Of a stretch of 20,694 nucleotides of DNA, positions 1 through 20,367 are shown one piece after another. The stretch is from the NCBI GenBank assembly GCA_900754605.1, contig CAAEDK010000276.1:1-20694 (forward strand), read 5' to 3'. Each line of letters begins with the position of its first letter. Position 1 is the stretch's first letter. Source of the DNA: an uncultured Oscillospiraceae bacterium. Its GTDB lineage: Bacteria > Bacillota_A > Clostridia > Oscillospirales > Oscillospiraceae. The notes beneath the pieces were generated by a model. The model saw only the letters and a program-made list of their open reading frames with translations, did not search any database and was not told the origin of the DNA. Made by a program: the position numbers and the translations under genes.

Positions 1-545
1 GCTGCAATGGGATCAAGCTGACTGGTCGGTTCGTCCAGAATGAGCACACTGGGCTGCATCGCCATGATAGACGCCAAATTCAGGAGCTGTTTCTGCCCGC
101 CGGACAGCTCTGTGACATTCTTGTAGAACCATGTCTGAATGCCGAAAAAGGAGGCCATCTCGGCCACCCGGCGCCGGATGGTGGGCGTATCATATCCCAG
201 GCTCTCCAAGCCGAAGGCCAGCTCATGCCACACCTTGTCGGTGACAATCTGGTTCTCCGGGCTCTGCTGCACAAAGCCGATTCTTGCGCTCTGCTCGCGC
301 TGATCCAGCTCCTCCAGCGGCCGTCCCTCAAAGCGGATGTGACCCATCCGGCGGCCATGGGGGGCCAGTACGGTCTTGAGCTGACGCAGCAACGTGGATT
401 TCCCACAGCCTGACGGGCCGCACAACACCAGGAATTCCCCCCGCTCCACGGTCAGCGTTAAATCGTCCAGCGTCTTCTCCGCCTGCTCCGGGTAATAGAA
501 GGAAAAGTGTTCAATTTCAATACTTGGCTTCTTCTGCTCAGACAC
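1..545 (-). CDS. ecfA: ECF transporter ATP-binding protein (EcfA/CbiO-like), 3' end cut by window edge
   Basis: This is an ATPase subunit of an energy-coupling factor importer, a cytoplasmic protein that hydrolyses ATP to drive vitamin or metal uptake through EcfT. Visible in order are a Walker A loop GPSGCGKST (about residues 43-51), a Q-loop region FVQQSPENQIV typical of the EcfA/CbiO group, the ABC signature LSGGQKQ (about 146-152), Walker B LILDEPTS, and the D-loop SQLDP right at the edge. The H-loop and C-terminus lie outside the window, so I cannot tell a single-domain ATPase from a fused two-domain one. I chose a GTG start at 545 because GGGAGG lies about 9 nt upstream and the reading frame matches family N-termini. 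The start overlaps the end of the TIM-barrel gene by 8 nt, which suggests translational coupling. Confidence 0.9.
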   Translation of the reverse strand, partial: MSEQKKPSIEIEHFSFYYPEQAEKTLDDLTLTVERGEFLVLCGPSGCGKSTLLRQLKTVLAPHGRRMGHIRFEGRPLEELDQREQSARIGFVQQSPENQIVTDKVWHELAFGLESLGYDTPTIRRRVAEMASFFGIQTWFYKNVTELSGGQKQLLNLASIMAMQPSVLILDEPTSQLDPIA

Positions 546-1524
546 GCATCCGTCCTCCCTGCTGTAATAATCTTGTCTGTACGCTCACGGCCTCCGCCCG
601 GGCCATGCGCCCGCGAGAGGACAGCTCGTGGGTCAGGTAGCGCGGTTCAATCTGCTCCAGAACTGACAGGATGGCGGGGTCTGTCCAGGGGCGATGCTGA
701 TCAATCTGGAGGATGTGCTGATAGCTCACTCCAAACCGCTCCATATAGTCCTCCGGCAGCCCCGCTGGCAGTGAACCAGTGTGCGCCTTCACATAGGCCC
801 CACTCAGGGACTGGTGTAGATGGACGCCCCGCACCCACTTTGCCAGGCTGCCATGCCGGTTCAGCATACGCCGGATGTAGTCTGCTCCCTCTGCCTCAGT
901 TTTCAACTCAGTACAAGCATTCATCAGATGTCCGGTGTCCAGCAGAATCCCTTTCCCCGCAAAGCGGATTCCCTCCAGCAGCCGGGCCGTCTCCTCCGGT
1001 TCCGTAAAGGTAAAGCCTGGCCACCACTGATTTTCCACCAGGAATTCAAACGGCCATCTCTCCTCGCCAAGAATGAGGTTCACCACCTCTACCGCCGCGT
1101 CAATGACCTCCTGGTTGGTGTGCAGCCAGCGGTAGGTATATCCCTCCTCCAGCGATACGTCCGACACATGGAAGACCACATAACGGGCGCCCAGGTTCAC
1201 CGCCCGCCGTAAATCCGCGCGGTATTGCTCCAGCAGCGTATCTGGCCCCAGCCCGCCATAGAAGCTGGCCGTAACCTCCAGTGAGCCGAATTTTTGTTTC
1301 AGTGCCGCCCGGTCATCTCGATAGAAGTCCAGCCAGTCCGGGTAAAAAATCAGGTGGTACCCAAGAATAAGCTCGGCAGGCAAATCCTTTGGCAGATCCT
1401 CTCCGCCCCAGACGCCCTCGATGCCGTCGCAGCCCAGCCGTTCCAATTCCTGGCCTAGATCACGCCAACTGTTGTACTCCCCAAGAGTCCCGGAGTACAG
1501 AGGCAGGCTCATCATTTGATACAT
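538..1524 (-). CDS. TIM-barrel protein, sugar-phosphate isomerase/epimerase or AP-endonuclease-2-like
   Basis: This is a 328-residue predicted cytoplasmic protein of the xylose-isomerase-like TIM-barrel superfamily, whose members are isomerases, epimerases or endonuclease IV-like enzymes using a metal centre. Barrel-strand motifs with likely metal or substrate ligands are visible: VVFHVSD, FLVENQWWPG (Glu), ILLDTGHLMN (Asp and His), GVHLHQS (His), QIDQHRPW and LTHEL (Glu). The length is ordinary for the family and the protein looks intact. The ATG at 1524 has GAGGTG 5 nt upstream and overlaps the end of ecfT by 13 nt. The stop overlaps the ecfA start by 8 nt. Being sandwiched between two ECF subunits implies the enzyme acts on, or is needed with, the imported compound. 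The substrate cannot be read from the sequence. A DNA-repair role is possible but less likely in this context. Confidence 0.8.
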   Translation of the reverse strand: MYQMMSLPLYSGTLGEYNSWRDLGQELERLGCDGIEGVWGGEDLPKDLPAELILGYHLIFYPDWLDFYRDDRAALKQKFGSLEVTASFYGGLGPDTLLEQYRADLRRAVNLGARYVVFHVSDVSLEEGYTYRWLHTNQEVIDAAVEVVNLILGEERWPFEFLVENQWWPGFTFTEPEETARLLEGIRFAGKGILLDTGHLMNACTELKTEAEGADYIRRMLNRHGSLAKWVRGVHLHQSLSGAYVKAHTGSLPAGLPEDYMERFGVSYQHILQIDQHRPWTDPAILSVLEQIEPRYLTHELSSRGRMARAEAVSVQTRLLQQGGRMRV

Positions 1525-2369
1525 GGCTTCACCTCATTTCGGGCGTCCAGTCTGCTCCAGGTACGGTCCGCGTGGATATTCAGGAACACCGGCGTCAGGC
1601 ATAATGCCAAATAGACCGCCTGTAGGCAGACTGTCAGCGGCGCCGCAGGCGCTCCCTTGGCCGTCGGGTAGTATCTCCAGGAAAAGCCGCCCACCGCCGC
1701 TCCGCAGCAGAGGAAGAACCCGCAATAGAGCAGCCATCCCAGCGCCATCTTGTCCCGGTCATCAAAGCGGTAAATGGAGAAGGCCGTCCGCCCCGGAAGC
1801 CCATACCCCCGGCTCTTCATGCTGTCAGCTGTCTCAATTGCATTTTCCAGGCTCCAGGTAAGCATGATGGAGAAAATCGTGACAGCGTTTCGAATCCGCC
1901 GGATAACCCCACCATCGGAGACATCCCGTCCGATGCATCGCTGCGCCTCCGACACAACGTGGAATTGGGCCTGGAACTTTGGGACAAACCGCAGTGCCAT
2001 GCTCAGCACCAGCGAGAGAGCCGGTATGAGCCTTCCAAACAGGTAGACAAATTTGTCCGAGGTCATCACCGCTGTGTAACAGGAAAACCATGTCACCACT
2101 GCGGCCAGCATGGCTGCCGCCGCTAATCCATACAGGATACTCTCCAATGTGAGCGGATTTCCCGAAGGCAGGTATGTAAGCAGGGTCGCCCCCTCATGGT
2201 TGAAGGCCGGGTTGATCAGGGCGGCCATCGCCATCATGGGGAGCATAAAGACAAGCGAGAAGCGTATCGCCTTCCGCCCCCTCAGATAGACCGCATAGGC
2301 CAGCGCCGACCCAAGGGAAATGCCGAGGCTGACCGGGTGCATGAAAAACATTGTAAAGGCTATCACCAT
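1512..2369 (-). CDS. ecfT: ECF transporter transmembrane protein EcfT, 5' end apparently damaged
   Basis: This is the integral-membrane scaffold of an ECF importer, coupling the ATPases to a substrate-binding S component. It shows several hydrophobic segments and family-typical stretches such as NPAFNHEGATLL, GNPLTLESI, MTSDKFVYLFG and LRFVPKF. The cytoplasmic coupling-helix motif SMKSRGYGL lies near residues 184-192, with an earlier AQRCIGRD that probably corresponds to the other coupling motif. The only in-frame ATG with open sequence is at 2369 and has no Shine-Dalgarno. The same frame stays open upstream and encodes RDTFSSYHPIINFLYFG, which looks like the normal EcfT N-terminus, but it has no start codon before an in-frame TAG. 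An ATG at 2436 is one base out of frame. Removing one base would restore a start about 22 codons upstream, so this is either a frameshift or a sequencing error. Function as annotated is uncertain. Confidence 0.85.
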   Translation of the reverse strand: MVIAFTMFFMHPVSLGISLGSALAYAVYLRGRKAIRFSLVFMLPMMAMAALINPAFNHEGATLLTYLPSGNPLTLESILYGLAAAAMLAAVVTWFSCYTAVMTSDKFVYLFGRLIPALSLVLSMALRFVPKFQAQFHVVSEAQRCIGRDVSDGGVIRRIRNAVTIFSIMLTWSLENAIETADSMKSRGYGLPGRTAFSIYRFDDRDKMALGWLLYCGFFLCCGAAVGGFSWRYYPTAKGAPAAPLTVCLQAVYLALCLTPVFLNIHADRTWSRLDARNEVKPCIK

Positions 2370-2442
2370 TCCAAAATACAGAAAATTTATTATTGGGTGA
2401 TAGCTGGAAAAGGTATCTCTATTTCGGATAAGGCATCCCCTC

Positions 2443-2478
2443 TAAACACCGGGTACGGCAGTCAGCCGTACCCGGTGT
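2443..2478 (-). terminator. Perfect 14-bp hairpin before ecfT, possible weak terminator
   Basis: A perfect 14-bp inverted repeat (2446-2459 with 2465-2478, 5-nt loop) precedes ecfT. On the minus strand it is followed only by TTTAG, so the U-tract is short. It may be a weak terminator, an RNA-stability hairpin or a processing site separating the binding-protein genes from the transporter genes. Confidence 0.45.
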
Positions 2479-2521
2479 GCATTTCTGTTGCGAGGCATTC
2501 CCGGTATGCACGCTACTCGGC

Positions 2522-2925: not shown

Positions 2926-2948
2926 TATCCCTCTGAAAGAATTTCAGA

Positions 2949-3896
2949 TCACTCTCCAGTCGAATAAAAACCGCCCACATCCACACCCAGGTCGCAGGTG
3001 TAGACCCACTCTATTACATCCCCCTCTTTGAGCTGATAGCGTGAGCAGCCATAATTGGGGAACCACCCGTTCACTTTATACATCCAGCCGGACAGCTCGC
3101 CGCAGTCAAACTCATAGAGGTTGTTAATCCCCTCAATATAAGCGGAGTTATACATGGGGGTGTCCTCGAACTCCATGTGGATGCCAGCCTTCCGCATCTC
3201 GCGCTGGAGCACATTGAACACACTCTCCCCCTCGTAGAACGTAACAGTCGTCGTAGGGAATATGACTCCGTCTTCCGGTACCAGCTCCACCTTCTCTGGA
3301 TCCAGCCAGTCCATGTTGTCCAGAATGGTGTCACAGCGGACAGAGAGCGTACAGGTATGGGTCACATCGGAGAACTCCACATCCTGCGGCTCCACCGGCA
3401 GAGGCTTTCCTTCCGGCACTGGATCCGTAAGATACTTGTCCTTTCCAGTCTCCGGATTGATCTCCATGCCGTTGGCCTCTGAGTACGCCTTGTCGCCCTT
3501 TTCCACACCGGCGGAGGAGCCGCCCGCCAGCTCGGCCGCGGCCTCCACCTTCTCCCGGGCAGTCATGCCGCCCTCCGCACCGCCCGGGCGGGCATCCAGC
3601 CCACCGGGTGTTGGGGATGGCGCAAGGGCATCAGTCTCCTGGGGGGTCTCGGACGGCACCGGACTACCGCTCACCGTCGGCGGGGGGCTTTCCGCCTCCC
3701 CGCCAGGTGTCACGATAGGCGCTATGGATTCCTCCGGACCGGAGGCGGGCGGCGCGGCCTCCAGCACTGCGCTGCTCTCCTGCTCCTGCACCGTCCAGCC
3801 CTGAAGACCTGGCGCGTTGCCGCCATACCAGAACGCCCCTGCCAGGACCGCGATCACGGCCACAGCGGCAATGATTTTCCCTTTTGTCAGCTTCAT
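2949..3896 (-). CDS. Membrane-tethered DUF4430 (transcobalamin-like beta-domain) protein
   Basis: This is a 315-residue extracytoplasmic protein. Residues 1-6 are basic and 7-25 form a hydrophobic segment without a clear cleavage or lipobox cysteine, so I infer an N-terminal anchor or signal. Residues about 30-110 are a Pro/Ser/Glu-rich linker. Residues about 179-312 form a DUF4430 domain, with family features including FYEGESVFNVLQREM, an ELSGWMYKVNGW motif, NYGC and a GDVIEWVYTCDLGVDVGG end. The same motifs recur in both DUF4430 copies of the giant protein. DUF4430 is the family of the C-terminal domain of transcobalamin and intrinsic factor, so a ligand-binding role near the ECF importer is plausible. 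The start codon overlaps the preceding stop (ATGA). No SLH domain is present. Confidence 0.85.
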   Translation of the reverse strand: MKLTKGKIIAAVAVIAVLAGAFWYGGNAPGLQGWTVQEQESSAVLEAAPPASGPEESIAPIVTPGGEAESPPPTVSGSPVPSETPQETDALAPSPTPGGLDARPGGAEGGMTAREKVEAAAELAGGSSAGVEKGDKAYSEANGMEINPETGKDKYLTDPVPEGKPLPVEPQDVEFSDVTHTCTLSVRCDTILDNMDWLDPEKVELVPEDGVIFPTTTVTFYEGESVFNVLQREMRKAGIHMEFEDTPMYNSAYIEGINNLYEFDCGELSGWMYKVNGWFPNYGCSRYQLKEGDVIEWVYTCDLGVDVGGFYSTGE

Positions 3897-4204
3897 TCGG
3901 CCGCCTCACTGTCTTCCCACGGCGTGTACAGGCAGTAGGCCGGGCACAGGTCGCCCATATAGATCCACACGTTCTCTCCCATGTCGACGGGCTCGGAGAA
4001 TGTCAGATTGGGGATCATCAGCTTGAGAGTGGTGCGCTTACGGCCCTTGATATTTTCCCCTTCAGGTGAGGGCTCCTTCCGGAACGCCTCCACCCGCTGG
4101 GCCAGGTCGTTGATGCCCAGCTCCCGGGAGAGCTTTGGAAGTATCTCCTCCTCCTTACAGTAAGCCACATGATCCGGATTCTTGAACCAAGCTACGTTCA
4201 TCAT
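3893..4204 (-). CDS. Small hypothetical protein (103 aa), operon member
   Basis: I do not recognise this family. The protein has no signal peptide or membrane segment. Two cysteines near residues 16 and 87 and a further one near 91 are visible, along with basic patches (GRKRTTLKL) and the stretch GENVWIYMGDLCPAYCLY near the C-terminus. AAGGGG lies about 10 nt upstream of the ATG at 4204, and a second ATG follows immediately at 4201. The stop overlaps the start of the DUF4430 gene in an ATGA arrangement, and the upstream SLH gene ends 26 nt away, so it is co-translated with two surface proteins. Ribosome binding and coupling make it a real gene. Its location (probably cytoplasmic) and job are unknown. 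Confidence 0.7.
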   Translation of the reverse strand: MMNVAWFKNPDHVAYCKEEEILPKLSRELGINDLAQRVEAFRKEPSPEGENIKGRKRTTLKLMIPNLTFSEPVDMGENVWIYMGDLCPAYCLYTPWEDSEAAE

Positions 4205-4230: not shown

Positions 4231-5901
4231 TCAGAGCAGCTCAGCGCTACTCAGAAGGTTGAAAAGCATCTGAGCAACCTCTGCTCGGGTCACAGCGTCC
4301 TGGGGCCGGACGTTCAACTCCGTTTGGCTCAGGATCCCCTCCTGGTAGCAGAAGGCCAGCTGGGCCCTGGCCCACTCCGCGGAGCTCATATAGTCCGGGA
4401 ACTGCGCCAGCATATTCCGCACAGCTGCGGTATCCATCTCCGTCTCGAGTCCGCACAGCTCCGCCGCGCGGGACACCATGACGGCCGCCTCCTGCCGGGT
4501 GATAGTCCCGTCCGGGCTGAACCGGCCCTCGCCCACGCCGTTGATAAGGCCGTATGTGCTGGCCGCGCCCACATAGGGGGAATACCAGGCAGTGGAGGCC
4601 ACGTCCACGAAGGCGCCGGTGTCCGCTGGTGTCAGCCCCAGGGCCCGTACCACGATGGTTGCAAACTCTGCCCGGGTCATGCTTCCATCCGGGTCAAAAT
4701 TTCCGTCGGACTTGCCGTCAATGATGCCTCGGGCGGCCAAGGCCTCGATGGCGGTGATCTGGTCACTGAAGGCGATGTCCGGGAAGGTCTTACCCGGTGA
4801 CGTGATAGGCTGGGCGGTCACGGCGGGATCCTTGCCCTCCAAGCCCTGTCCCTGCCCGCTCATCTCTGTCTCCACGGCGTCGGGGATGGAGAGGGCGTCG
4901 GACATGCGGTAGAGGCTGCTGCGCCCCTCCGCCGCCCGCTGGGCGGCCACCAGGCCGTAGAAGCCCTGCTCCGTCGCCATCTGGTTGGACCCGGAGCCGG
5001 ACTGGGTGTGCAGGAAGCCCTCCCCCTGCCGGTAGAAGGTCATCAAATTGTCCAGCATGGTGTTTCCGTTCTTTACAAACCGAGGATCATCCAGTTCGAT
5101 GCCCAGCTCACACAGAGCCACGATCATCTGCACACAACTCTCGGAGTTAGCCGTCCCCCAGGACGCAAAACCGCCATCGTCGCTCTGCTGTTCCGACATG
5201 CACGTCAGTGCTTCCTTAGTAGCCCGCGCTACCTCCGGCTGATCTTGATACTTGGCCAGTGCCTGCAGAGCCATACCGGTGATGTCTGGATCGGATATTC
5301 CATCGCCAGAACTGGCTGCCTCTGTTCCTCCGAACAGGCTCCACCCTCCATCGGGCAGCTGGCACTCCAAAATGCGGTCGATATACATTTGACGGGTCGC
5401 CTGTACATTTGCCTCCGGGTTCTCCGGCATGGGATAGCCTGCGCTATCCAGTGCAATCAACGCCCAAATTGGGCCGTTAAGCCCCTGCCAAATCGTTTTT
5501 TCGTAGTCGCCCAGCGGTTTGGTCAGGTCATATCCAGCCACATTTCTGGCATCTTTCCCGATTGAGCTGAGAGCAACTATCACACGGGAATACTCCGTAT
5601 ATTTCTTATCGTGCAGCTTGCCGTCGCAGGCCGTTACATAGGCCTCCACAGTGGCATAGTAGTCCTGATAATAGCTGTCCGGTACATCGTACCCACTTCG
5701 GGCCAGCCCCAGCACAGCCCATTCACCGCCGATAGACCCTACCTGCGGGTTCTGAACGGTGCGGTACATATATTCTGCGGTATCCTGCACCGCCTCGTTC
5801 AAGGTCTCTTTGGATACGGCCGCCTGCGCTCCCGTCAACATACCCGTGGTCAGGGACAGGGCAAGCACAAATGCGAATCCACGCTGTTTCCATTTCTTCA
5901 T
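4231..5901 (-). CDS. Secreted alpha/alpha-toroid (transcobalamin alpha-domain-like) protein with three SLH domains
   Basis: This is a 556-residue exported protein held to the cell wall by SLH domains. Residues 1-27 are a signal peptide (basic start, hydrophobic core, ending AQA). Residues about 30-335 are a prenyltransferase/squalene-cyclase-like helical barrel, with repeated helix pairs and motifs GGEWAVLGLARSGY, GPIWALIALDSAGY, LPDGGWSLFGG, SDDGGFASW, MATEQGFYGLVA and LYRMSD. Three SLH domains begin near residues 373, 431 and 500. The same fold and several of these motifs occur once in the giant protein, so the two are paralogous. The fold is that of the alpha-domain of transcobalamin/intrinsic factor, and no terpene-cyclase function is expected in a secreted SLH protein. 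The ATG at 5901, chosen for its upstream GGAGGAG and because it begins the signal peptide, overlaps the preceding gene's stop by 4 nt. Confidence 0.9.
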   Translation of the reverse strand: MKKWKQRGFAFVLALSLTTGMLTGAQAAVSKETLNEAVQDTAEYMYRTVQNPQVGSIGGEWAVLGLARSGYDVPDSYYQDYYATVEAYVTACDGKLHDKKYTEYSRVIVALSSIGKDARNVAGYDLTKPLGDYEKTIWQGLNGPIWALIALDSAGYPMPENPEANVQATRQMYIDRILECQLPDGGWSLFGGTEAASSGDGISDPDITGMALQALAKYQDQPEVARATKEALTCMSEQQSDDGGFASWGTANSESCVQMIVALCELGIELDDPRFVKNGNTMLDNLMTFYRQGEGFLHTQSGSGSNQMATEQGFYGLVAAQRAAEGRSSLYRMSDALSIPDAVETEMSGQGQGLEGKDPAVTAQPITSPGKTFPDIAFSDQITAIEALAARGIIDGKSDGNFDPDGSMTRAEFATIVVRALGLTPADTGAFVDVASTAWYSPYVGAASTYGLINGVGEGRFSPDGTITRQEAAVMVSRAAELCGLETEMDTAAVRNMLAQFPDYMSSAEWARAQLAFCYQEGILSQTELNVRPQDAVTRAEVAQMLFNLLSSAELL

Positions 5902-6590
5902 ATGACCGCGTCTCCTCCTGTTTTTCTTTCGGAAGGCCCTGCAGGTTCCCTCCAGGCACTGAGCCAATAGCTCCACAAATGCTTCATGGCCAGCTTGCTA
6001 AGGACAGGTATGCCCATCAGCTCCATGGCCCTTTTATTGGTACATCGCTTTTTTTGAAACAGCTTCTTAAGCTCTGGTGTGATTTCTTCTTCTCCCGGCG
6101 GCCGCCAGCTTTCTTTGACAGACTTGCACATGCGTTCTACCAGTTCTGACTCCCGCTCCGTCAAGGGAGAACCAATCCGTTCGCAATACGCCCTGAATCT
6201 GTCTGCGGACACCCGCTCCGGCCAGTCTGGCGGCCACCGCTTTTGCTCTTCCAGCCTTTTTCGAAATCCTTTGGCTGCCCAGCACGCTTTATTGGTACTT
6301 CCAAAGCGCCGTTTCAAATAAACCTGACGTATTAGGCTGAGCTGATACAGCCGTGGCTTATGGCCTGGATGATCCATTGTCCCAACCACGGCCTCCAAAA
6401 GCGCCTCATCCGTATAGCTCTCATAAATCTGCCGGCCGATATTCCCTTCGGGATTAAATACCCGCCAGATGTCCGGATCCACCGTTTGTCTTGAACTTTC
6501 TTGTTCTTCCCGGCTTTCCACGTCCAGTTCTGAGAGCCACTGGCGGTATCCCCGCAGCTCTTTTTCCGTCAGCTTTTGCTCTTTGAGCAT
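5898..6590 (-). CDS. Homing-endonuclease-associated-repeat-like protein (230 aa), no nuclease domain seen
   Basis: This is a highly charged, Lys/Arg/Glu-rich protein with no signal peptide. Residues about 57-107 fit the HNH_repeat/HEAR pattern: TDEALLEAVV at the start, a Gly-His-x-Pro turn in the middle, and RRFGSTNKACWAAKGF at the end, close to the family's FGSW..AL.AAG ending. This type of repeat is a small DNA-binding-like helical unit often linked to HNH nucleases, but no HNH catalytic motif is visible here. I chose the ATG at 6590 because GAGGTG lies upstream and the longer frame would run through a hairpin. The stop overlaps the next gene's ATG by 4 nt. The gene sits directly after a structured RNA and a terminator hairpin, as does the HEAR-like gene at 19350-19694 after the riboswitch. 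A regulatory role is inferred from position only. Confidence 0.65.
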   Translation of the reverse strand: MLKEQKLTEKELRGYRQWLSELDVESREEQESSRQTVDPDIWRVFNPEGNIGRQIYESYTDEALLEAVVGTMDHPGHKPRLYQLSLIRQVYLKRRFGSTNKACWAAKGFRKRLEEQKRWPPDWPERVSADRFRAYCERIGSPLTERESELVERMCKSVKESWRPPGEEEITPELKKLFQKKRCTNKRAMELMGIPVLSKLAMKHLWSYWLSAWREPAGPSERKTGGDAVI

Positions 6591-6611
6591 GATACCGCTC
6601 ACCTCAACAAG

Positions 6612-6647: not shown

Positions 6648-6670
6648 ACATTTGTATATCCCACCCATTT

Positions 6671-12900: not shown

Positions 12901-15900
12901 TCATATGCCGTCCTGGCGGCTACAATGGCATCCTTGCTCCCGGCGCTGACTTTTTCCCCAATCGCTTCCACCAGATCGTTAAACGCCTGTACTGCGGCCA
13001 CGTCGTCCGGCGATATGCTCCCGCCCAGGGCCTCCACCGCCTCGTTGAGACGGGCGACCTCCGCTGCCTTCAGATAAAGTTGGCCGCTGATACCCAATGC
13101 CTCGTAAGCCGTTTTTGCAGCTTCAACTTTTGAACGGTGCGCCTCAGGATTCTCCGTAATTTCTACGGCAGTGGGAAGGTCGGCGATCTGAGTTTTTACG
13201 CTGTCAATAGCCGCAAAGAACTGGATCTGCTCCGCCGCTGCTGTCAGTTTAGCAGCAGAAACCTGTGATTTGTCCGGCAGTGCATTATAATCCGCTTGTA
13301 GCGCACTGACCGTCTGTTGGAAGCTTTTATAGTTGCTATATGTGATTTCTGACTTATCCGGCAGGTCGTCGATCCTGGCCTGGATTCCCTTCGCTCCGCT
13401 CTCGCAGACCTGGATGGTGTACCAGGTGCCGGTATAGCGGAGCGTGTTGCCGGACTGGTTGTTCATGGACGGCCACTTGTATTCGCCCACACCGATGTAA
13501 ATGGTGTCTCCTGGCTGGACCGGTAGATTTTCACCACGGCGATAGTACTCCACATTGTTGGCCGTGGTTTTGTTATTGATAAATGTCTTGACCAGGAAAT
13601 TTTTGTTTGCCGCTGTAGGTGTGACCGACACATCTCCGCCGTCCAGGGTCAGGGCATAACTGGTGGTCTCCCCGTCGAAGGATGGCGACAGCGTACCGCC
13701 GGTGACCTCTAGTTCCTTGAGGCTGGTGTCTCCGTTGCCCCAGGTTCCGCCCAGATCGTCTCCGTACCCGTCCATCGTGAACATCACGCGGATCTCGTCT
13801 CCGTCAACCAGGCGGTAATCGCGATCCGTATTTGAAACAGCATAGGAAGAAAATCCGTAGTTGGTGAACCAATCGTTGAGCACGCCCATCCAGCCGGAAC
13901 TCACACTGCCGTCAAATGCCGCAAGTTTGGCTTCGCCATTGTCCCACTGCCCATTCTGATTTACATCTTTATAGATGTTTTCGATGTAAGTGACGCTCGT
14001 GTCATTCCCGTTGTTCCAACCATAACCGTTCTCGGACAGGGCTTCCAACACAGCAGTCATCATAGTGGTATCACTGTAAAGCTCGACCTCCGCCTCTACA
14101 AAGGCGCCGCCATTTTGATAGAAAGAGCCGTCCGCGTAAGTGGTGTTCTCAACGGTCACATGCACACTGCCGAACTCTCCGCTGGAAACGCGCGTCTCAA
14201 CGGCTTTCATCGCATTGAGGGCATCGCTCAAGGCTGTTTCTATTGCTTCGGCGTTCTCCGCCGCATTGATCTTGGACACGCCCTCGTCATACGCAGATGT
14301 CAGTGTCTTCCAGTTTGTATCGCTGTAATCAGACCGCTTATAGCCATTGAACGCCTCTGACAGTTGATCCAGCGCACTGCTGCGCAGACTTTCCACCGAT
14401 GTTTTGCCTCGGATATAAAATGTGATCGTCACATCGTTCCTCGGCATGAACGCTGATGTGGAGTCAGCGAAGTAGAAAGGGGCAACCCCTTCCCAACCCT
14501 TGTTGTATCCGCCTTTCGGATCGGTTGGGGGCCTATCCAGCCTCAATTCGCTCAGTGTCGCCCCCGTGGACTCCACACGATAGATCTCATAGTCCAGTTC
14601 ATTCAATGCAGTGCCGGTTTCCGTACGGATATATACCCACCACTCATCATTGGGCGAGAGTTCAATGACGTTCGCATATCGAAAGCCTTTGTTTTTAAGG
14701 GCCAAAAAGCTCTTGAATGGGTCACTGGATCCCTCCTGCCCAATGAACTCAAAGGTCAGCGTAAAGGTCTTTTCCGGCAGGTTGCTTCCGTCCTCACCAT
14801 AGGCTTCTACCAGAGCCTCCCACTGTGCCTGTTCCTGGCCGGTGAGCTGTGATTTCTGGTAGCCGGTCATTCCGGCATAGTGGGAACTCGCCTCCTGCAT
14901 GGTGGAGATGTCGCTCTGCAGGAAGAGTCCCTCCCCGATCTGTGCCACTGTTGGGAGCTTCGCCAGGTATTTCCGCATGGCAGAGACAGATTCCTCATTG
15001 GATTTCTCCGCGTTCTCCACCAGGCTCTCGATTTGGGTCAGCGCATTTGAGAGCGCGTCTTCGGCCGCTTTAAGGCTTGTCGCGTCCTCGATGGCCTGCA
15101 CTCCCGCATCATGGGCCGCCTGGACCTGGGCGTAGACGGCTTCTCCCAACTCAGTGGCGTTGCATCCGGCCAGCACCGCAGCCAGAAGGCTCTTGCGCGC
15201 TTCCTTCGCCGCCGCAAGTTCTTCCTCATTCAGAGGGGTGACCGTCACTGTGGTCCGGGCGGGCGCGTTCAGCGATGCGTACTGGTGCTGGGCGCTGCTG
15301 GCCGTCTGGTCAAATATCACGGATTCCGGATTCGCCGCAACCAGCACATATTGGCCCGCCTCATTGAGATGCGTGGTCACCGTCCCGCTTGCGTCGGTGA
15401 TCCCCTCCAGAAGCTGGTACTCCCCGGACGGCGCTCCTCTCTCATCCAGCTTCACTGCCAGCAGGCGGGCGCCGTTGAACGGCGCAGAGCGGCCGTCGTA
15501 GCTTCCCACCCAGCCTCCAGTTCGGGTCACCTTCAGCGTAAGCGCCTCGCCCTCTGCCACGGTCTCCGCATGGTCTTCAAACGACAGCAGGCCCCAGAAG
15601 TCTGTCGTGTTGACATACGCCGTTACGCCCATGGCGCTGTATTCCCTGTCCATGGGAGCGGGGGCGAACAGGATCACAACTTCATCGCCGTCCCGGAGCT
15701 TTATGTCGCCCCACTTCGCTCGATTTACGGCCACTCCGTCGAGCTGTGTCGGATTTAATCCGGCATCCCGGAGCTGAATGCCGTTGACGAAGACCGCGAC
15801 CGTGGTTTGGCGGTTTGACGTGAGCGAGGAATTGCCTTTCACCTGCAGCTGGAGCCCGGCTGACGCGACCAGTCCGGCAACGGTGCGGCCCGCACCGCTC

Positions 15901-17321
15901 AGGGAGACGTCAGGGTTCTCATAGATGCCTTCCGAGGGCGGGAGTCCCAGCTCCGCTCCGTCTGGGCTGGCGAGGTCGTAGGCAACCTGGCTGTCGGCCA
16001 CGCGGAGGGAGACAGAAATTGTTTCCTTCGCGCTCTCCAGCCCCTCGTAGTAGGCCGACCACAGCGCCGCCGCATGTCTCTGATATCCATTCAGGACAGA
16101 AGCGGACACCGACGTCCCTACCAGACCGTGCTGCTGATAGTAGGATTGGGCTTCCTGGTAGGCCGTCTGGAACGCGGTAAAGCTCTCCTCTGTATAGCCG
16201 CTCTCATGTTCCAAAGCGCCCGCGAACTGAGCGAGCATACCGGCAAGCGACCGCTGATAGATCGACGCGCTGGTCACCTCATCGCCGCCGTTGTAAACAG
16301 CGTCCAGATCGCCGGCGGCAGCCAGCAACTCCTCCGCGTACTGCTCCACAGTGTCCTGATGCTCAGCCTTGTTCTCCGTTGTGGGGTTCCCATCCTGGTC
16401 ATAGAGGGAAGCGAGGTAAGCTTTGCCCTTCTCATAGACTGTCTTATACGCAGTCCAGGTCTCCGGCGTATAGTCCTCCTGCCGGTACCCTCGGCTTTCC
16501 ACCTCCTGGATGGCTTCATACAGGACAGTGGCGTTGACCTGGTTAGCAGGGATCAGGTTGGCGATGGCCGCATTCAATGAAGCTGTGGCACCATTCACAT
16601 CCTCCTGTGTTGCAGTTATATTATCTAAAATCTCCTTTGCTGTTTTTAGTGCCGTCTGAAAGTCCTGCCAAAAGCCGTCACTGCTCGTTGTCTTCCCGTT
16701 GTAATAATCCTCAGCCTGATAGTAATCACTACTACTTATTAAGCCAGCCCCAGCAATGACACGTTGAAGCTCATCTTTATTTGCTCCTTCGACTTCTTGC
16801 GATGCCTCTGGCCATTCCAAAATAAGGACACCAATTATGGTATTAATTTTACCCCGTTTAACAGTATATAGGTAGTATCCAAGCTTGTCTGTGTCTGTTC
16901 TTAGTCCATCTAAAATTTCTTCAGACAGATTGGATGAAATACTGCTTTGATAAAGGGCCTCACCTTTCGAGTAATTTTCCGAATCAGGTGCCACGTTAAT
17001 CAAGTTTGTCGCACCTATAGCTGCTGGTTTCTTACCCATAACTGGCACGACAGTCGTAATTGCGCAGCTTGACGCATCCGAAAACTCAATCGCATTATAT
17101 TGCACAGTATCTACTACAAGGCGGTATAAATTATAATCATTTCCTTCAATTGTTATAGTTCCAATTTGCTCCAAAGCATCTGGGTCCGATACGGTCATGG
17201 TCTCGGCGGCAAAAGCAGTTGTCGGTAAAAACCCAAGCAGGATTGTCAAAATCAAAATAAATGAGATGAGCGAGCGTCCAAAAGGACGCTCGCTCACTTT
17301 TCCTATTTTATCCATATCCAT
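6924..17321 (-). CDS. Giant SLH-anchored surface protein with two DUF4430 modules and a transcobalamin alpha-domain-like toroid
   Basis: This is a 3465-residue exported protein. Rough order: signal peptide 1-39 (ends AFAA); FIVAR-like helical repeats about 160-430; a beta-rich region 430-700; more helical repeats to about 1050; DUF4430 copy 1 (1051-1190, with SGWMGVLNDWF); a cadherin-like beta domain to 1312; helical repeats to 1557; an alpha/alpha-toroid 1566-1888 (KGEWAVLAQARAG, GTIWALIALNSG, STEQAAYALVAY, LYDMSD); a B-repeat split by a Cys-rich and Pro/Glu-rich stretch (1945-2310); a beta module 2349-2558; a second B-repeat; DUF4430 copy 2 (2654-2797) with its own cadherin-like domain; helical repeats; a second copy of the 2349 module (3053-3278); and three SLH domains from 3283, 3342 and 3404. 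It carries both halves of a transcobalamin-type binder. The start at 17321 lies 3 nt after the previous stop and has a poor ribosome site; GTG at codon 9, preceded by AGGA, is an alternative. Confidence 0.92.
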   Translation of the reverse strand: MDMDKIGKVSERPFGRSLISFILILTILLGFLPTTAFAAETMTVSDPDALEQIGTITIEGNDYNLYRLVVDTVQYNAIEFSDASSCAITTVVPVMGKKPAAIGATNLINVAPDSENYSKGEALYQSSISSNLSEEILDGLRTDTDKLGYYLYTVKRGKINTIIGVLILEWPEASQEVEGANKDELQRVIAGAGLISSSDYYQAEDYYNGKTTSSDGFWQDFQTALKTAKEILDNITATQEDVNGATASLNAAIANLIPANQVNATVLYEAIQEVESRGYRQEDYTPETWTAYKTVYEKGKAYLASLYDQDGNPTTENKAEHQDTVEQYAEELLAAAGDLDAVYNGGDEVTSASIYQRSLAGMLAQFAGALEHESGYTEESFTAFQTAYQEAQSYYQQHGLVGTSVSASVLNGYQRHAAALWSAYYEGLESAKETISVSLRVADSQVAYDLASPDGAELGLPPSEGIYENPDVSLSGAGRTVAGLVASAGLQLQVKGNSSLTSNRQTTVAVFVNGIQLRDAGLNPTQLDGVAVNRAKWGDIKLRDGDEVVILFAPAPMDREYSAMGVTAYVNTTDFWGLLSFEDHAETVAEGEALTLKVTRTGGWVGSYDGRSAPFNGARLLAVKLDERGAPSGEYQLLEGITDASGTVTTHLNEAGQYVLVAANPESVIFDQTASSAQHQYASLNAPARTTVTVTPLNEEELAAAKEARKSLLAAVLAGCNATELGEAVYAQVQAAHDAGVQAIEDATSLKAAEDALSNALTQIESLVENAEKSNEESVSAMRKYLAKLPTVAQIGEGLFLQSDISTMQEASSHYAGMTGYQKSQLTGQEQAQWEALVEAYGEDGSNLPEKTFTLTFEFIGQEGSSDPFKSFLALKNKGFRYANVIELSPNDEWWVYIRTETGTALNELDYEIYRVESTGATLSELRLDRPPTDPKGGYNKGWEGVAPFYFADSTSAFMPRNDVTITFYIRGKTSVESLRSSALDQLSEAFNGYKRSDYSDTNWKTLTSAYDEGVSKINAAENAEAIETALSDALNAMKAVETRVSSGEFGSVHVTVENTTYADGSFYQNGGAFVEAEVELYSDTTMMTAVLEALSENGYGWNNGNDTSVTYIENIYKDVNQNGQWDNGEAKLAAFDGSVSSGWMGVLNDWFTNYGFSSYAVSNTDRDYRLVDGDEIRVMFTMDGYGDDLGGTWGNGDTSLKELEVTGGTLSPSFDGETTSYALTLDGGDVSVTPTAANKNFLVKTFINNKTTANNVEYYRRGENLPVQPGDTIYIGVGEYKWPSMNNQSGNTLRYTGTWYTIQVCESGAKGIQARIDDLPDKSEITYSNYKSFQQTVSALQADYNALPDKSQVSAAKLTAAAEQIQFFAAIDSVKTQIADLPTAVEITENPEAHRSKVEAAKTAYEALGISGQLYLKAAEVARLNEAVEALGGSISPDDVAAVQAFNDLVEAIGEKVSAGSKDAIVAARTAYENLTDAQKALVATAPDSYNTLLNAEAALPVVERIAGIGTVTLESEAAITAARQAYTDYAGKFSGKDMVSNLNVLEAAEAALEILQGGGQDTSGYREVMNGVLEYLEQNVKNPIVGSTKGEWAVLAQARAGTLSEDVRAAYLANLADYVETHDGILDTSKNGTMHTEYARVVVTLTALGMDATQFQVSDGKTYNLVKPLLDEAAEGSSYTYQVSEQGNNGTIWALIALNSGDYYRDEAGNTARAAWIDLLIDKQQSNGNWPIYNPDQENDGSGSQLGGVDVCAMALQALAPYYLDAGEFNRLGTAHSHEDLQSAVKKALDFLSTSQNSTGGYGSSESSAQVIVALAALKKDAGSFAKGSISVLADLLGYRKTDGGFSHTSDGPIDQMSTEQAAYALVAYDRYKNNKKPLYDMSDVFDGPTDGTDTDHTIHASADAGGTISPVGDVTVPDGAKQSFTVTPNEGYQIEDILVDGKSVWAGGATVAQKLEPPEYQLPTVPVEDVEPEACADGIHVGENVVIGQRAATCTEPGYTGDTICGACGEVLEQGAETRTVPHQYGGAWQMDETSHWQVCQICGAKSSAEPHVFEQTEEPAPPELEFPEQGGATQKPTTGEETEAPGAEPEMPDADGQQPEETEGQDPDTIPPEGESDPEVPAPGEETGEDSANENEPPAEEQTKIPESAEAPASDESQPDINPGSTGGELVSVVGIHPMLLMSVGAGLPQTDGTAEPHAEGSACQVCGYSPETGGTAACSHSGGTATCTALASCDLCGQSYGDYAQHAFTETAHSSGVHWNVCAACGLEELSSLAPHSWELDAAASTETISVYVCPDCGAERTEAESAAPTTAANALVTSADSKSYTYTFENVTEDHAISVTFEKPSPVIVQEVTINGNTQTAVIDEAAVQKAVEAVTASAADTITIIPTADSSSISSVSVELPAGAAQTISEANAGVEIQTSRGTVTLPANVLGSIAQKETDGEKLSIHVEEKSHSAMEDIVPDGTNLAGSVAVEVSVRVGSTELTSFGGHDLTLTIPVDNSFTLSREYKVLVISDNGSHEILTGTCRVSDSGRVVSISVNHLSTFIVLAETTAQTFTITATAGGNGDIDPFGSVEVDAGEDQIFHITPDNGYEIATLRVDGKTVDLDELYIRSDGSASYTFYDVDASHSIRATFQRGTEIPDFGPVVGEVYISIENNTYWGGDFTGTLASGWYDLCAEDTMMTIVLKALALDGYSWWGTGASDTGGYDITYLSGIYMDKNGNGRRDNSEPSLAEFDGSRGAGWMGTLNDWFVNEGFQSFRVGGRGTYELADGDYLNIVFTQNLGEDVGSLWGNSDTSLEDLHISGGSLAPRFDGDTLEYTLSITGNSARVTVTPTAVNKNYMVKTFLNRYNRDSAFYKRTESITVKPGDILYIGVGDPSWPSMNNQSTEAIDYEGTKYTITVVNGNSAEAVIGMIKAVPEITYANYKTQASKVSAARAAYDALTQKAKAEISQTLLNKLEAAEEKIEFYEKIDAAKKLLKELPAVNKNKVPTSSLIRQVRKAADAYEKLNSKQREYITAEDAGRYEALRLWLIESGAVGQNELPVIDGSLTLPEQDGVEVVLEPKASVDNSGNASAAVTAADLNKLLDEALEAEASVLVIAPTGAEQASAISVELPRCTLDNALDETNADLAVRTPLGELSMPNLTLARILSGAGGKDLTVNMARRTISQAEALLNGRADVTEEQMSGASVVEVSLTSGNKSITSFGGRSITLLLPVNAGAFQAGQACTVYQISGGGAVEKLAGVCLSRNGGLWVKVSTTQLGTFVAVPPEQPVQLPFTDVREGDWFYDAVAYAYTNELFNGTSATTFSPNGTMTRAMLVTALWRLEGEPAAAGTSGFPDVKPDAWYTEAVDWASQTDIVSGTGAGFDPEGSVTREQIASILYRYAKLKGWDVSKTANLQDFADGTDTSAWATRAMEWAYAEKLITGKDGKCLDPQGQASRAEVATILMRLLESKAKNA
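8596..9357 (-). repeat. DUF4430 plus cadherin-like beta module, copy 2 within the giant gene
   Basis: This segment encodes DUF4430 (AGWMGTLNDWFVNEG, ending GEDVGS) followed by a beta-sandwich starting TSLEDLHISGG and containing PSWPSMNNQS. It is clearly homologous to 13408-14170 in the same gene, including the shared PSFDG/PRFDG and NKNFLVKTF/NKNYMVKTF stretches, which indicates an internal duplication. Confidence 0.85.
13408..14170 (-). repeat. DUF4430 plus cadherin-like beta module, copy 1 within the giant gene
   Basis: This segment encodes DUF4430 (SGWMGVLNDWFTNYG, ending GDDLGG) followed by a beta-sandwich starting TSLKELEVTGG and containing YKWPSMNNQS. Copy 1 lies before and copy 2 after the alpha/alpha-toroid. 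The order of shared motifs is identical in both copies. Confidence 0.85.
17267..17296 (-). other. Perfect 13-bp hairpin inside the giant gene's signal-peptide codons
   Basis: Positions 17267-17279 pair perfectly with 17284-17296 around a 4-nt loop, giving a UUUU loop in the mRNA. It lies within codons 9-19 of the giant gene, just after the possible GTG start and before the hydrophobic core of the signal peptide. It is followed by T-rich coding sequence, so it could act as a partial attenuator, a translational brake or an mRNA end-protecting structure. Confidence 0.7.
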
Positions 17322-17324
17322 TTT

Positions 17325-18938
17325 TTATTGGCAAATCAGCACAGTAATATACGGGGCCTCTTCTCCGGTCTGCGTGATGATCTGTAACATGTCTCCGGCT
17401 GCCATTGTAAACACATGCCCATCCGCAGCATCGCTAATCGTCTCGCCATTGAGCAACACACGCTCCATATCGGAGTACAGACGGTACTTGCCAGCGGCCA
17501 CTACCTGGCTCCCCCCGTTGCTCGTATTCACCTCGTTCTCTCCTGTCGCTGCATCGGCAATAAACAGATCCTCCGTGATGCTGGCAGAGCCGCTCCCTGT
17601 CACCGCGTAGATGCCGCAAACCTCAGCGGAGGTCTCACCGAAGATACCGGGTGTGGGGATGGTGGTGTTATCCGTGCTGCTCATCAGTGCGGATGTATAT
17701 ACCCGGATATAACCGATCCTTATAAGCCCCGCAGGTGTGCCGTCCGGCTTTACCGCCCACGCAATGTCGAAGCCATCCCCACCCTGCGTGGTGGCCGCGG
17801 CGGTGTAGGGATTGATCGCCGTACCATAATTGCCGCCATTCACATGGATATCCGCATAGCCAAACTGATAGTCCGCGGTGGTATCCGTGTCCTTTACCAG
17901 TGTAACGCCGGTATAAGTCACGCTGGCGCCGTTAAAGGCGGAAGCGCCGACGGTCTGATCGCTGGAGACGGCGGACGTCTTCCACACGCCGCCGTAGTTC
18001 GCCGTGGTGGGGAACCACGCAGCGGCGCCAGCCTTGAACGTCCCGGTGAGTGGGAAGGAAACGCCGGGATTGCGCCCGTTCGGATCCGTGATGCTGTACT
18101 GAATATCGCTCCCGCTCAGGGTATAGGTGATGTTCACATCGCGAAGCGTATTGGGGTCATAGTACAAACTTCCGGCCAGCTCATACCAGGTCTTTCCATC
18201 TTCGGAGACCTGGACAGAGGCCGCCTCAGGGTTGCCGTTGAAGGCGTTGCCGTAGACGATAAAGTCCACGCCATAGGGATTGCTCGCGTCATCTTCAATA
18301 TAGGCCTGGTTCCCTTCGCTGTCCCGCAGGGCATACTGGACGTAGCCGCCGCCGGCACCCAAGGAGACGCCGGTAGAAGAGAACCCGCCTAGAACCTTGG
18401 GGGTGCTGCCGGCCGTCGTGCTGCCGTCGGTATAAGGGCTGCCCCACATCGTGCCCCGGGCATACTGGCCCAGCGGCAGATACCCCTGCAAGACTCCGGT
18501 GATGGCGCCGCCGGCCATCTGTCCCTCCGGCGCAGCAAAGGTCAGCGTGTAGACGTTGTTGCTCTGGGCCGCATTCGCCAGCCTAATCACAATGCTGCCC
18601 CCGCTGTTGTTGGTCACCAAATACTTGGTGCCGCCCTCCGTTTCCTCCACAGGCGCAGACAGGGTGCCGCCAGTAACGGTGATTCCGTTCTCCTCGGCGC
18701 TGTCTACATAGAGGTAGAAGCTGGAGGGATAGTAGCCGTCTTCACTCGACACGATATCTCCTGTGTGATAAGCTTCGGAATCTACGGTTTCACTATCCCA
18801 TACCACCGACAAAGGGCCTGCAGTATCAACGCTGATGCGGTCATGGTCATTGTCCATTACCGCTCCCGCACTGACCGTCAGCAAGCTGAATGCCATAGCC
18901 AGGGTCAGCAGCATCGCTGTAAATTTTCTGGTTTTCAT
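17325..18938 (-). CDS. Secreted beta-rich surface protein resembling B12-locus cell-surface proteins
   Basis: This is a 537-residue exported protein with a signal peptide (residues 1-26, ending SAGA) and no SLH, LPXTG or membrane anchor. The centre (about 215-415) holds a beta-sandwich-type domain with PYGVDFIVYGNAF, NPEAASVQVSEDGKTWYELAG, QFGYADIHVNGG and GGDGFDIAWAV. From memory, very similar motifs occur in surface proteins of Bacteroides vitamin B12 loci and in clostridial proteins encoded beside DUF4430 genes; I cannot confirm this by search. The ATG at 18938 was chosen for GGAGG 7 nt upstream and because it begins the signal peptide, although the frame is open further upstream. Its stop lies 3 nt before the giant gene, so the two are co-transcribed. 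It may be a ligand-binding or accessory partner of the giant protein. Confidence 0.75.
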   Translation of the reverse strand: MKTRKFTAMLLTLAMAFSLLTVSAGAVMDNDHDRISVDTAGPLSVVWDSETVDSEAYHTGDIVSSEDGYYPSSFYLYVDSAEENGITVTGGTLSAPVEETEGGTKYLVTNNSGGSIVIRLANAAQSNNVYTLTFAAPEGQMAGGAITGVLQGYLPLGQYARGTMWGSPYTDGSTTAGSTPKVLGGFSSTGVSLGAGGGYVQYALRDSEGNQAYIEDDASNPYGVDFIVYGNAFNGNPEAASVQVSEDGKTWYELAGSLYYDPNTLRDVNITYTLSGSDIQYSITDPNGRNPGVSFPLTGTFKAGAAAWFPTTANYGGVWKTSAVSSDQTVGASAFNGASVTYTGVTLVKDTDTTADYQFGYADIHVNGGNYGTAINPYTAAATTQGGDGFDIAWAVKPDGTPAGLIRIGYIRVYTSALMSSTDNTTIPTPGIFGETSAEVCGIYAVTGSGSASITEDLFIADAATGENEVNTSNGGSQVVAAGKYRLYSDMERVLLNGETISDAADGHVFTMAAGDMLQIITQTGEEAPYITVLICQ

Positions 18939-19333
18939 ACGTAAACCTCCTTCAAGTCTCTCCGTTGGATCGTTTCCCTTGTACTCCTGTTTACAACTCT
19001 TTTTGACTCTCACCGCCTCCTTCCGCTGAGAAGTCGCATTTTAATCAACCGTCAATGCGGCCGCCGCCGCGCTCCCGGAAAAAGCGCAGGGGCCGCCGCA
19101 CCGATTGTCCCGTTCCCGCTGATCCTCTCCGCCCAAACACCAATACTGTTCCTGTGCAGTTGCCGCCCCGCATTGCTCCACGTCTCTCCGCTGTTGGTGG
19201 CTCGGCCGGCCTTGCCGGCGTCCTGGCCTACTCCGCTCACGGAATATCGCTTTTGGTACTGGGTTATTCAATTGTCAGCCGCGTACCGGCCATATGCGAC
19301 AGGCGATAGCCCGCTGAATGCTCAAAGAGAGAT
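18939..19333 (-). other. Leader without a convincing gene, about 395 nt
   Basis: This GC-rich stretch lies between the first HEAR-like gene and the secreted-protein gene. Short open frames exist on both strands but have no Shine-Dalgarno or recognisable protein, and one would need a TTG start. I see no promoter with good -35 and -10 boxes. The Shine-Dalgarno of the downstream gene (GGAGG) lies at its low-coordinate end. It could be an untranslated leader or the remains of a lost gene. Confidence 0.5.
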
Positions 19334-19357
19334 CGTCATAGGGGTTTCCCTATGACG
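19334..19357 (-). other. 10-bp hairpin overlapping the stop of the first HEAR-like gene
   Basis: Positions 19334-19343 pair perfectly with 19348-19357. The stem covers the gene's stop codon. The minus strand continues ATCTCTCTTTG rather than a T-run, so it may stabilise or partly terminate the riboswitch transcript rather than end it. Confidence 0.5.
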
Positions 19358-19694: not shown

Positions 19695-19756
19695 AAAACA
19701 GCCTCCTGACTTGTGGCACAATCCGGCTACCCCGCAAACCTCTTGGGGCAATCGAA

Positions 19757-19792
19757 ACAAAAAGACGGACGCATACCGATACGTCCGTCTTT
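19757..19792 (-). terminator. Distal of two tandem terminators behind the riboswitch
   Basis: An 11-bp perfect stem (19761-19771 with 19782-19792) with a 10-nt loop is followed on the minus strand by TT, then GTTT; the last T residues of the stem extend the run. It may also work on the plus strand. It stands between the riboswitch and the 19694 gene. Confidence 0.75.
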
Positions 19793-19807
19793 CTCCCGAG
19801 CTTGCGA

Positions 19808-19837
19808 ATAAAAAACGGACGCAAAATATGCGTCCGC
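19808..19837 (-). terminator. Proximal of two tandem terminators behind the riboswitch
   Basis: A 7-bp GC-rich stem (19816-19822 with 19830-19836), extended by a G-U pair, is followed by TTTTTTATT on the minus strand. It is a textbook intrinsic terminator and shares its GGACGC stem core with the distal one. It is the probable off-state of the riboswitch. Confidence 0.8.
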
Positions 19838-19905
19838 TTCTGCTCCCATTTCGGGTAGAAGGGGCCACTTATTCAGTGCCCTCCTCACATTTGGCATTTA
19901 TCTCA

Positions 19906-19936
19906 GAGCAACCCCAATGAATTGGGGGTAAGCTCC
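19906..19936 (-). promoter_or_regulatory. Hairpin between the riboswitch aptamer and the terminators
   Basis: The minus strand forms an extended hairpin, GAGC with GCTC outside and an ACCCC..AA with TT..GGGGT stem inside. No U-tract follows. Directly downstream of the aptamer's last conserved block, it could serve as a switching element of the expression platform. Confidence 0.5.
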
Positions 19937-19937
19937 T

Positions 19938-20170
19938 AGTAGGTCTTCTGACTAATGTGTCCCGACGGGCTTAAAGCCCGCCTGCGCATATCCGCCGCCT
20001 TCCCAGCTAAGCCATTACGACCGCCAGTGACCTGCTTTCGCAGAAAACAGATATACTCCACAATCACAGCTATTGAATTGCACGTCCCCGTAGCTTTCGC
20101 CACGGCTCCTGCTGCAAAACATGTCCAGGAATTTCACCTGATTCCCTTGTTCAGAAACAAGGATGCGTGT
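19938..20170 (-). promoter_or_regulatory. Cobalamin riboswitch (AdoCbl-type aptamer)
   Basis: The conserved blocks of the cobalamin aptamer occur in the right order on the minus strand: GGGAAT (20146-20141), GGTGAAATTCC (20138-20128), CACTGGC (20029-20023), GCTGGGAAGGC (20007-19997) and the B12-box AGTCAGAAGACCT (19953-19941). Supporting hairpins are a 7-bp stem with a GAAA loop at 20088-20105 and a 5-bp stem at 19966-19980 in the position of the kissing-loop arm. Known family behaviour is cobalamin binding that turns off uptake genes. Two terminators follow at 19808-19837 and 19757-19792. The exact 5' boundary is uncertain. The GCCCCCGC-type block after GGTG is weak, so this may be a divergent member. 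Confidence 0.85.
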
Positions 20171-20339
20171 CCGCTCCCTGACGGGAGTCGGGTCGCGCAT
20201 TTGCCACAAAAGCCGGATTCATATTAAATTTTACAGGAAGGTGCATGCCACTCTGCCCATGCAGAACTCAGAAGCCATCCCCTTCAAAGAACTATCTTTT
20301 GTTAAACTTGCACTTTACAAATGGCTTTCTTTTGAGTTC

Positions 20340-20367
20340 ATTATACAACTTTCCGCTTAAAATGCAA
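20340..20367 (-). promoter_or_regulatory. Sigma-70/SigA-type promoter for the riboswitch transcript
   Basis: TATAAT (20345-20340) is preceded 16 nt upstream by TTGCAT (20367-20362; CTTGCA gives a 17-nt spacer). Transcription should start near 20333, giving a leader of about 640 nt that holds the riboswitch, hairpin and terminators before the GTG at 19694. Confidence 0.8.

Follow-up and report, generated by a model that had tools for sequence, protein, structure and literature searches.

A riboswitch-linked operon of Clostridia that joins transcobalamin-like surface domains to an ECF importer and probably captures and imports cobamides

Introduction

The vertebrate TCN proteins are described, in the available part of the source, as carrying a C-terminal DUF4430 domain (PMC4350170). 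When the two halves of human transcobalamin, TC-alpha and TC-beta, are made separately, they join only with cobalamin, and TC-beta alone has been solved with cobalamin bound (PMC5599065, as far as its accessible text goes). Energy-coupling factor (ECF) importers are described as having their binding protein in the S component itself, and PDB entry 6FNP is the B12 transporter ECF-CbrT, which carries both cobalamin and cobinamide (PMC5997447, accessible portion). The nearest published hint of a link between surface capture and such an importer comes from Eubacterium siraeum, in which a BtuH homologue lies close to an ECF-like cobamide transporter (PMC8941943, in the portion available). Here we analyse a 20,694-nt stretch of DNA from an uncultured, gut-type Gram-positive bacterium of the Oscillospiraceae (GCA_900754605.1, contig CAAEDK010000276.1), called the window throughout, which carries a cobalamin riboswitch, surface proteins with DUF4430 and alpha/alpha-toroid (alpha) domains, and the beginning of an ECF importer. 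We propose that this operon is probably a riboswitch-controlled system for the capture and import of cobamides, the vitamin B12 family.

Results

DUF4430 genes lie behind cobalamin riboswitches

DUF4430 genes are found downstream of cobalamin riboswitches far above chance in two genome samples. The order-level sample comprised 60 relatives, 38 of them with DUF4430, and riboswitches were searched in the nearest genome, G001, and 37 others. It holds 63 DUF4430 places, 42 of which are in genomes with a riboswitch match, and in 29 of these 42 a switch lies on the same strand within 12 kb upstream, where 0.45 would be expected. Widening the distance to 20 kb gives 30 of 42 (expected 0.74), and narrowing it to 1.5 kb gives 14 of 42 (expected 0.06). 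In the single-switch genomes the lone switch leads a DUF4430 gene within 20 kb in 14 of 15, two of the 14 (G024 and G028) having a switch match below the Rfam cut-off. Among DUF4430 genes shorter than 200 amino acids, 10 of 17 at this level lie within 1 kb of a switch.

The class-level sample covered 118 genomes, 55 with DUF4430, and 48 of the 53 new DUF4430 genomes gave a switch match. After removal of duplicate rows of G001 (four) and G054 (one), 75 of 126 DUF4430 places lay within 10 kb downstream of a switch (expected 0.76), compared with 10 of 126 with a switch on the other, downstream side, which served as the control. Of 28 single-switch genomes, 22 have that switch leading a DUF4430 gene at a distance of at most 10 kb. 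These chance expectations include the number of switches per genome and assume rounded genome sizes and uniform placement; several DUF4430 domains can share one operon, so the places are not independent. The riboswitch tables include rows below the Rfam cut-off (four at order level, three at class level), and the DUF4430 tables include a few rows below the Pfam cut-off.

The window's own riboswitch, at 19921..20177 (−, marking the minus strand here and below), scores 39.2 bits against the RF00174 cut-off of 31.5 (E 6.5e-7), with its aptamer core and B12 box aligned to the model, which bears out the cobalamin riboswitch named in a preliminary description of this DNA. A regular expression for the riboswitch recovered the window's copy and only 10 or 11 of 19 known switches, and was dropped. 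Directly 3' of the aptamer, fold z-scores pick out two terminator-like hairpins. The first, a probable expression platform, lies at 19811..19841 (−; fold of 19795-19860, z −5.9), and the second, with 16 pairs followed by a T run, at 19759..19794 (−; z −4.3). The second hairpin also appears in a consensus terminator scan, from which the first is absent.

In G001 the window is carried on contig C205 at 99.3% identity over 19.7 kb, and a stronger riboswitch (C205:103-296, 107.5 bits) adjoins what would be the window's high end, so that the cluster in this genome stands behind two tandem switches. A paralogous, diverged copy on contig C6, mostly about 80% identical where aligned, is also behind a riboswitch. 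G001 has 18 cobalamin riboswitch matches in all, 17 above the cut-off, and judged by eye these also precede B12 synthesis genes (C188) and a BtuFCD-like importer (C111).

The importer has a CbrT-type S component

The preliminary description had reported ECF subunits in the window, and both a T and an A component are indeed present: a T component of the CbiQ/EcfT family at 1512..2369 (−; 33.1 bits) and a first ECF ATPase at 3..545 (−), which is cut by the window's low edge and, by comparison with relatives, is the start of an ATPase-ATPase-S fusion. No S component was found within positions 1-20,694. We considered the 580-nt gap at 2370-2948 as a site for one, and rejected it since it has no minus-strand frame of the needed size, only gene remnants in several frames.

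In five relatives (L068, L069, L070, L077 and L086) the ATPase gene encodes a fusion of 864-892 amino acids, in which two ATP-binding cassette (ABC) domains are followed by an S domain at the C-terminal end (checked with Pfam in L069 and L086); L073 and L087 have the S component in a frame of its own. G001 has two S domains, on C209 and C228, which are contigs other than the window's counterpart. Each of the two lies behind an ATPase stretch with its start at the edge of the contig; masked bases interrupt the copy on C228, and a second ABC stretch of the fused ATPase is also present in this genome, judged by eye. The remainders on C209 and C228 fit the broken ends of C205 and C6, through joins that are presumed. 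The S component of the window's operon would be predicted to lie beyond position 1, where the preliminary description had proposed to look for it.

A profile of six S components from long operons (A3) has one PDB match at E<=1, chain 6fnp_A of CbrT (E 3.2e-12), and a profile of 15 S components encoded next to short DUF4430 genes (A5) likewise matches only 6fnp_A at E<=1 (1e-23). Four of the genomes that contribute S components to the second profile (G038, G039, G046 and G047) had no detected switch. An S component plainly specific for an unrelated ligand would have spoken against the capture-import reading of the preliminary description; CbrT is the only PDB match.

Relatives of the S component are encoded by at least 576 stretches, and the 80 loci considered here are the best among the matches listed, many of them ending at contig ends. 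DUF4430 is present in 60 of these 80, the alpha domain in 50 and the T component in 74. For the 52 that have at least 8 kb upstream, the counts are 43 for DUF4430, 39 for alpha, 52 for T and 22 for a riboswitch-like match, the last made with a sequence-only model (R1) at E values up to about 5e-6 (31 of 44 rows used). Rfam was applied to seven loci and confirms the switch in six of them (L137, L150, L159, L164, L172 and L174), L163 being the exception. Among named isolates, Sporobacter termitidis DSM 10068 (L159) and Fusibacter paucivorans DSM 12116 (L163) are examples with DUF4430, alpha, T and S components together at a single locus. Separately, in L141, L158 and L194 a riboswitch-like match precedes an ECF T and a CbrT-type S component with DUF4430 undetected, apparently the same importer without the capture proteins.

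Surface proteins carry DUF4430 and alpha domains

The operon's DUF4430 domains are divided between two proteins. A 315-residue protein at 2949..3896 (−), with an N-terminal hydrophobic anchor recognized by eye, has a DUF4430 domain (about 2997-3230) that matches PF14478 at 67.3 bits, and relatives of this protein number at least 7998 at E<=0.001 (all scored candidates among the matches listed). A 3465-residue surface protein at 6924..17321 (−) contains two DUF4430 domains, at 13719..14186 (−) and 8910..9374 (−), both of which Pfam missed when the whole protein was searched. Searched alone, the first scores 18.3 bits, below the Pfam cut-off of 23.8, and the second goes unmatched in Pfam up to E 10; the profile of the 315-residue family picks up both (hhalign E 6.7e-13 and 2e-10, respectively). 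The count of three DUF4430 domains given in the preliminary description therefore stands, one by Pfam and two by profile comparison.

Alpha domains occur in the same 3465-residue protein (11646..12659, −) and in a 581-residue protein at 4231..5976 (−; domain about 4885-5826), and they match each other, the 581-residue family aligning with residues ~1555-1892 of the larger protein at hhalign E 3.1e-43. The SLH (S-layer homology) anchors of the preliminary description are confirmed as three stretches in each of the two proteins, those of the larger one at 6927..7481 (−). The 3465-residue protein is the sole protein of the window in which an alpha domain precedes DUF4430, with about 760 residues between them. 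The proposed assignment of these domains to the intrinsic-factor/transcobalamin alpha fold holds in part: there are two mutually matching toroid domains, but neither they nor the fusion protein discussed below matches PF01122 up to E 10, the L087 fusion does not match it up to E 1, and the window's domains have only sub-threshold squalene-hopene-cyclase or prenyltransferase matches in Pfam.

One-chain fusions of alpha and DUF4430 recur in bacteria, with hydrophobic, probably membrane-spanning, helices between the domains. One of them, P0342, consists of alpha, two hydrophobic helices and DUF4430, and was modelled with a pLDDT (predicted local distance difference test) of 91 and a pTM (predicted TM-score) of 0.62. 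Ranks 1-15 of its Foldseek matches are rat, human and bovine transcobalamin, intrinsic factor and haptocorrin (E 7e-9 to 7e-7), and the model also matches the isolated human beta domain (5no0 and 5np4) and the bacterial structure 3u7z. Over the whole model the TM-scores lie at 0.24-0.39 (by query length); we attribute these low values to the free placement of the two halves. With VIA-align, the alpha half accounts for the rows of this model (terpene cyclases, which come first, epimerases and glycoside hydrolases) and transcobalamin is outside the best 50 matches listed; for this reason we rely on how Foldseek ranks the two-domain model. The comparison with transcobalamin proposed in the preliminary description thus succeeds, at the level of a predicted structure, for the fusion, and only weakly for the window's own alpha protein: the 581-residue model (residues 26-581, pLDDT 86) finds SLH structures first and rat transcobalamin next at E 7.6e-5, about level with the terpene cyclases that surround it. 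A profile of the membrane DUF4430 family (A6) found neither transcobalamin nor 3U7Z among PDB sequences, giving chance-level matches to E 10, and the structural link to transcobalamin therefore rests on folds. Since alpha alone is a common fold, it is the pairing of alpha with DUF4430 that points to transcobalamin.

Operon layouts in relatives

In the long layout, a switch is followed by one or more large SLH proteins, an alpha-SLH protein, a membrane DUF4430 protein, the T component and the ATPase-ATPase-S fusion. In the short layout, seen in 12 places, the domain of a DUF4430 protein (frames of 137-261 amino acids) follows a switch at a distance of 302-564 nt, and a CbrT-type S component adjoins 10 of the 12; none was found in G043, and G042:C99 was outside the check. 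The short loci L074, L080 and L082 have DUF4430 and an S component with alpha undetected. A third arrangement, in G040 (L087), has a dockerin-bearing DUF4430 protein and a one-chain alpha-DUF4430 protein ahead of T and A. The former, at L087:7672-9348, is a surface protein with a type I dockerin domain, whose sequence suggests attachment via cohesin in place of SLH. The riboswitch search found none in L086 and L087 (G032 and G040). DUF4430 is also present in the control genomes of Lactococcus lactis and Methanosarcina acetivorans.

Other genes of the window and neighbouring loci

The main genes of the window are on the minus strand, reading from about 20.2 kb toward position 1 in the order riboswitch, two hairpins, small HNH-repeat-like open reading frame (ORF), 562-residue gene, 3465-residue gene, second HNH-repeat-like ORF, 581-residue gene, 103-residue gene, 315-residue gene, remnant gap, ECF T, TIM-barrel gene and ECF ATPase start. 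The two HNH-repeat-like ORFs, both weak matches between the switch and surface genes, are at 19350-19868 (E 0.012) and 5898-6668 (E 0.1), and in relative L068 a related ORF sits between two riboswitches. The first large gene after the switch, at 17325..19013 (−; likely start 18938, by eye), encodes a 562-residue, secreted-looking protein with a weak F5/8 type C match below the cut-off and a homologue near riboswitches in L084. We considered it as a DUF4465/BtuJ-like binder and set this aside, DUF4465 being unmatched up to E 10 in a sequence search. A conserved small ORF of 103 residues lies at 3893..4204 (−); contig C12 of G001 has a similar stretch, and L071 a homologue. The TIM-barrel protein (AP_endonuc_2) at 538..1524 (−) lies between ECF T and A, and such a gene also precedes the ATPase gene in L068 and L070. 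Judged by eye, the remnants in the gap at 2370-2948 fit a decayed gene for DUF2284 and a cysteine-rich small domain; an intact DUF2284 protein is found at L069:4155-4727 (−), between ECF T and ATPase.

Elsewhere in G001, riboswitches are near peptide-type (Opp/Dpp) solute-binding or transporter genes (L030, L031, L026 and L033, by eye) on contigs C210, C134, C12 and C164, with five tandem binding-protein genes on C210. These Opp/Dpp-type genes could be corrinoid or cobalt importers. Another riboswitch precedes nitrogenase-like genes (L029, C210:25197-25382, −; by eye), and a B12-controlled nitrogenase-like enzyme there would be of interest.

Discussion

A model for capture and import

If the operon works as we propose, low cobamide would cause the riboswitch to let it be transcribed, and the SLH-anchored alpha-half proteins would hold cobamide at the cell wall, the 3465-residue protein having both alpha and DUF4430 halves. 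The membrane-anchored 315-residue DUF4430 protein would be the beta half at the membrane. Capture could be by either half, and the cobamide, by analogy with the human transcobalamin halves, would bridge alpha and beta and close them. The ligand would then be passed to the CbrT-type S component fused to the ATPases and, with the T component, imported. That the ligand class is cobamide is strongly supported; ligand binding itself, ligand-driven assembly of alpha and beta, the order of hand-off and a single transcript across the cluster are what we infer. The capture-import reading of the preliminary description gains support from the match of the P0342 model and from the relation to CbrT; it needs correcting on PF01122, which the window's alpha proteins do not match.

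Several observations weigh against this proposal. Of the class-level DUF4430 genes shorter than 200 amino acids, only 2 of 18 lie within 1 kb of a switch, the window's 315-residue gene is 16.7 kb behind its switch, and the alpha domain by itself is non-specific, its resemblance to transcobalamin being matched by that to terpene cyclases, epimerases and glycoside hydrolases. This last point would suit a division of labour in which the alpha/alpha-toroid SLH proteins have glycans or another polymer as ligand and serve only as anchor or scaffold, with DUF4430 alone binding the vitamin, and the loci with DUF4430 and an S component in which alpha went undetected (L074, L080 and L082) would fit it as well. 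A scaffold-only role is harder to reconcile with the repeated one-chain alpha-DUF4430 fusions, with alpha in 39 of the 52 well-covered loci among the best 80 listed, and with transcobalamin as the best match of the two-domain model, and we regard it as unlikely.

A less distant alternative, one we still hold to be somewhat unlikely, is that the system takes up not B12 but a corrinoid precursor or analogue (cobinamide, or incomplete or foreign cobamides) for remodelling by an organism that makes B12. G001 has cbi-type synthesis genes behind cobalamin switches (by eye), cobinamide is also moved by ECF-CbrT (PMC5997447, accessible portion), and human TC-beta was solved with cobinamide (PMC5599065, in the text available). 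The alpha half, on the other hand, would suggest recognition beyond the corrin ring, and the computed data do not separate precursor from cobamide. It is also conceivable that DUF4430 serves ECF importers or surface proteins in general as an accessory domain, whose nearness to riboswitches reflects only a large cobalamin regulon. The domain's presence in Lactococcus lactis and Methanosarcina acetivorans and the 18 riboswitch matches of G001, one below the cut-off, could be read in this way. Against it, the chance expectation already accounts for switch number, genomes with one switch have it ahead of DUF4430 in 14 of 15 and 22 of 28 cases, and the S components from G038, G039, G046 and G047, where no switch was detected, belong to a profile that matches only CbrT, so we consider this reading very improbable. 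Cobamide capture and import is the account we prefer.

Significance

By name the parts are ordinary, but together they appear to form a coherent, recurrent system that is undescribed in the literature searched. Judged by titles and abstract openings among the matches listed, it has no description there; most subscription papers were outside the search, and an earlier description is possible. The system recurs in Clostridia, with DUF4430 in 55 of 118 sampled genomes and at least 576 S-component stretches. If the proposal is true, the two-half recognition architecture of the animal B12 carriers is also that of bacteria with which they may share niches, ECF importers gain a dedicated extracellular capture stage, that of a binding protein, and the DUF4430 domain, which InterPro labels transcobalamin-like, gets a function. 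The operon also raises the possibility of a bacterial origin of the animal B12 carriers. The fuller form of this idea, a widespread split transcobalamin of Clostridia that is glued by its ligand and feeds an ECF S component, with the animal carriers descended from a bacterial alpha-DUF4430 protein, we offer as a tentative and rather doubtful conjecture.

Comparison with known systems

Vertebrate transcobalamin, intrinsic factor and haptocorrin resemble the window's proteins in having a C-terminal DUF4430 beta domain and an alpha/alpha-toroid partner domain. Unlike in the vertebrate carriers, the halves in the window are mostly separate and are anchored by SLH or a membrane segment. The window's system is riboswitch-controlled and beside an ECF importer, whereas the vertebrate carriers are taken up by endocytosis, and PF01122 is unmatched in the window. 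A bacterial structure of 96-97 residues, RUMGNA_00854 of R. gnavus (PDB 3U7Z), matches the DUF4430-containing model; it was deposited as a putative metal-binding protein, and among the papers that a search brought up, none is about its function by title.

The BtuG, BtuH and BtuJ proteins of Bacteroides are like the proposed system in that surface capture comes before a membrane importer and the loci are riboswitch-regulated (PMC13398666, in the part available). BtuJ is a jelly-roll of family DUF4465 (same source and portion), to which the window's 562-residue protein has no match, and the Gram-negative Bacteroides loci include btuB.

ECF-CbrT of Lactobacillus delbrueckii (6FNP) is like the operon in its S component of the same family, its ECF T and its two ECF A components. 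In that species a gene cbrS beside cbrT is named without explanation in the accessible text (PMC5997447), and because it goes unexplained there, a partner protein for CbrT is conceivable. Unlike in ECF-CbrT, the S component in most of the relatives seen is fused to two ATPase domains and is encoded together with DUF4430 and alpha surface proteins.

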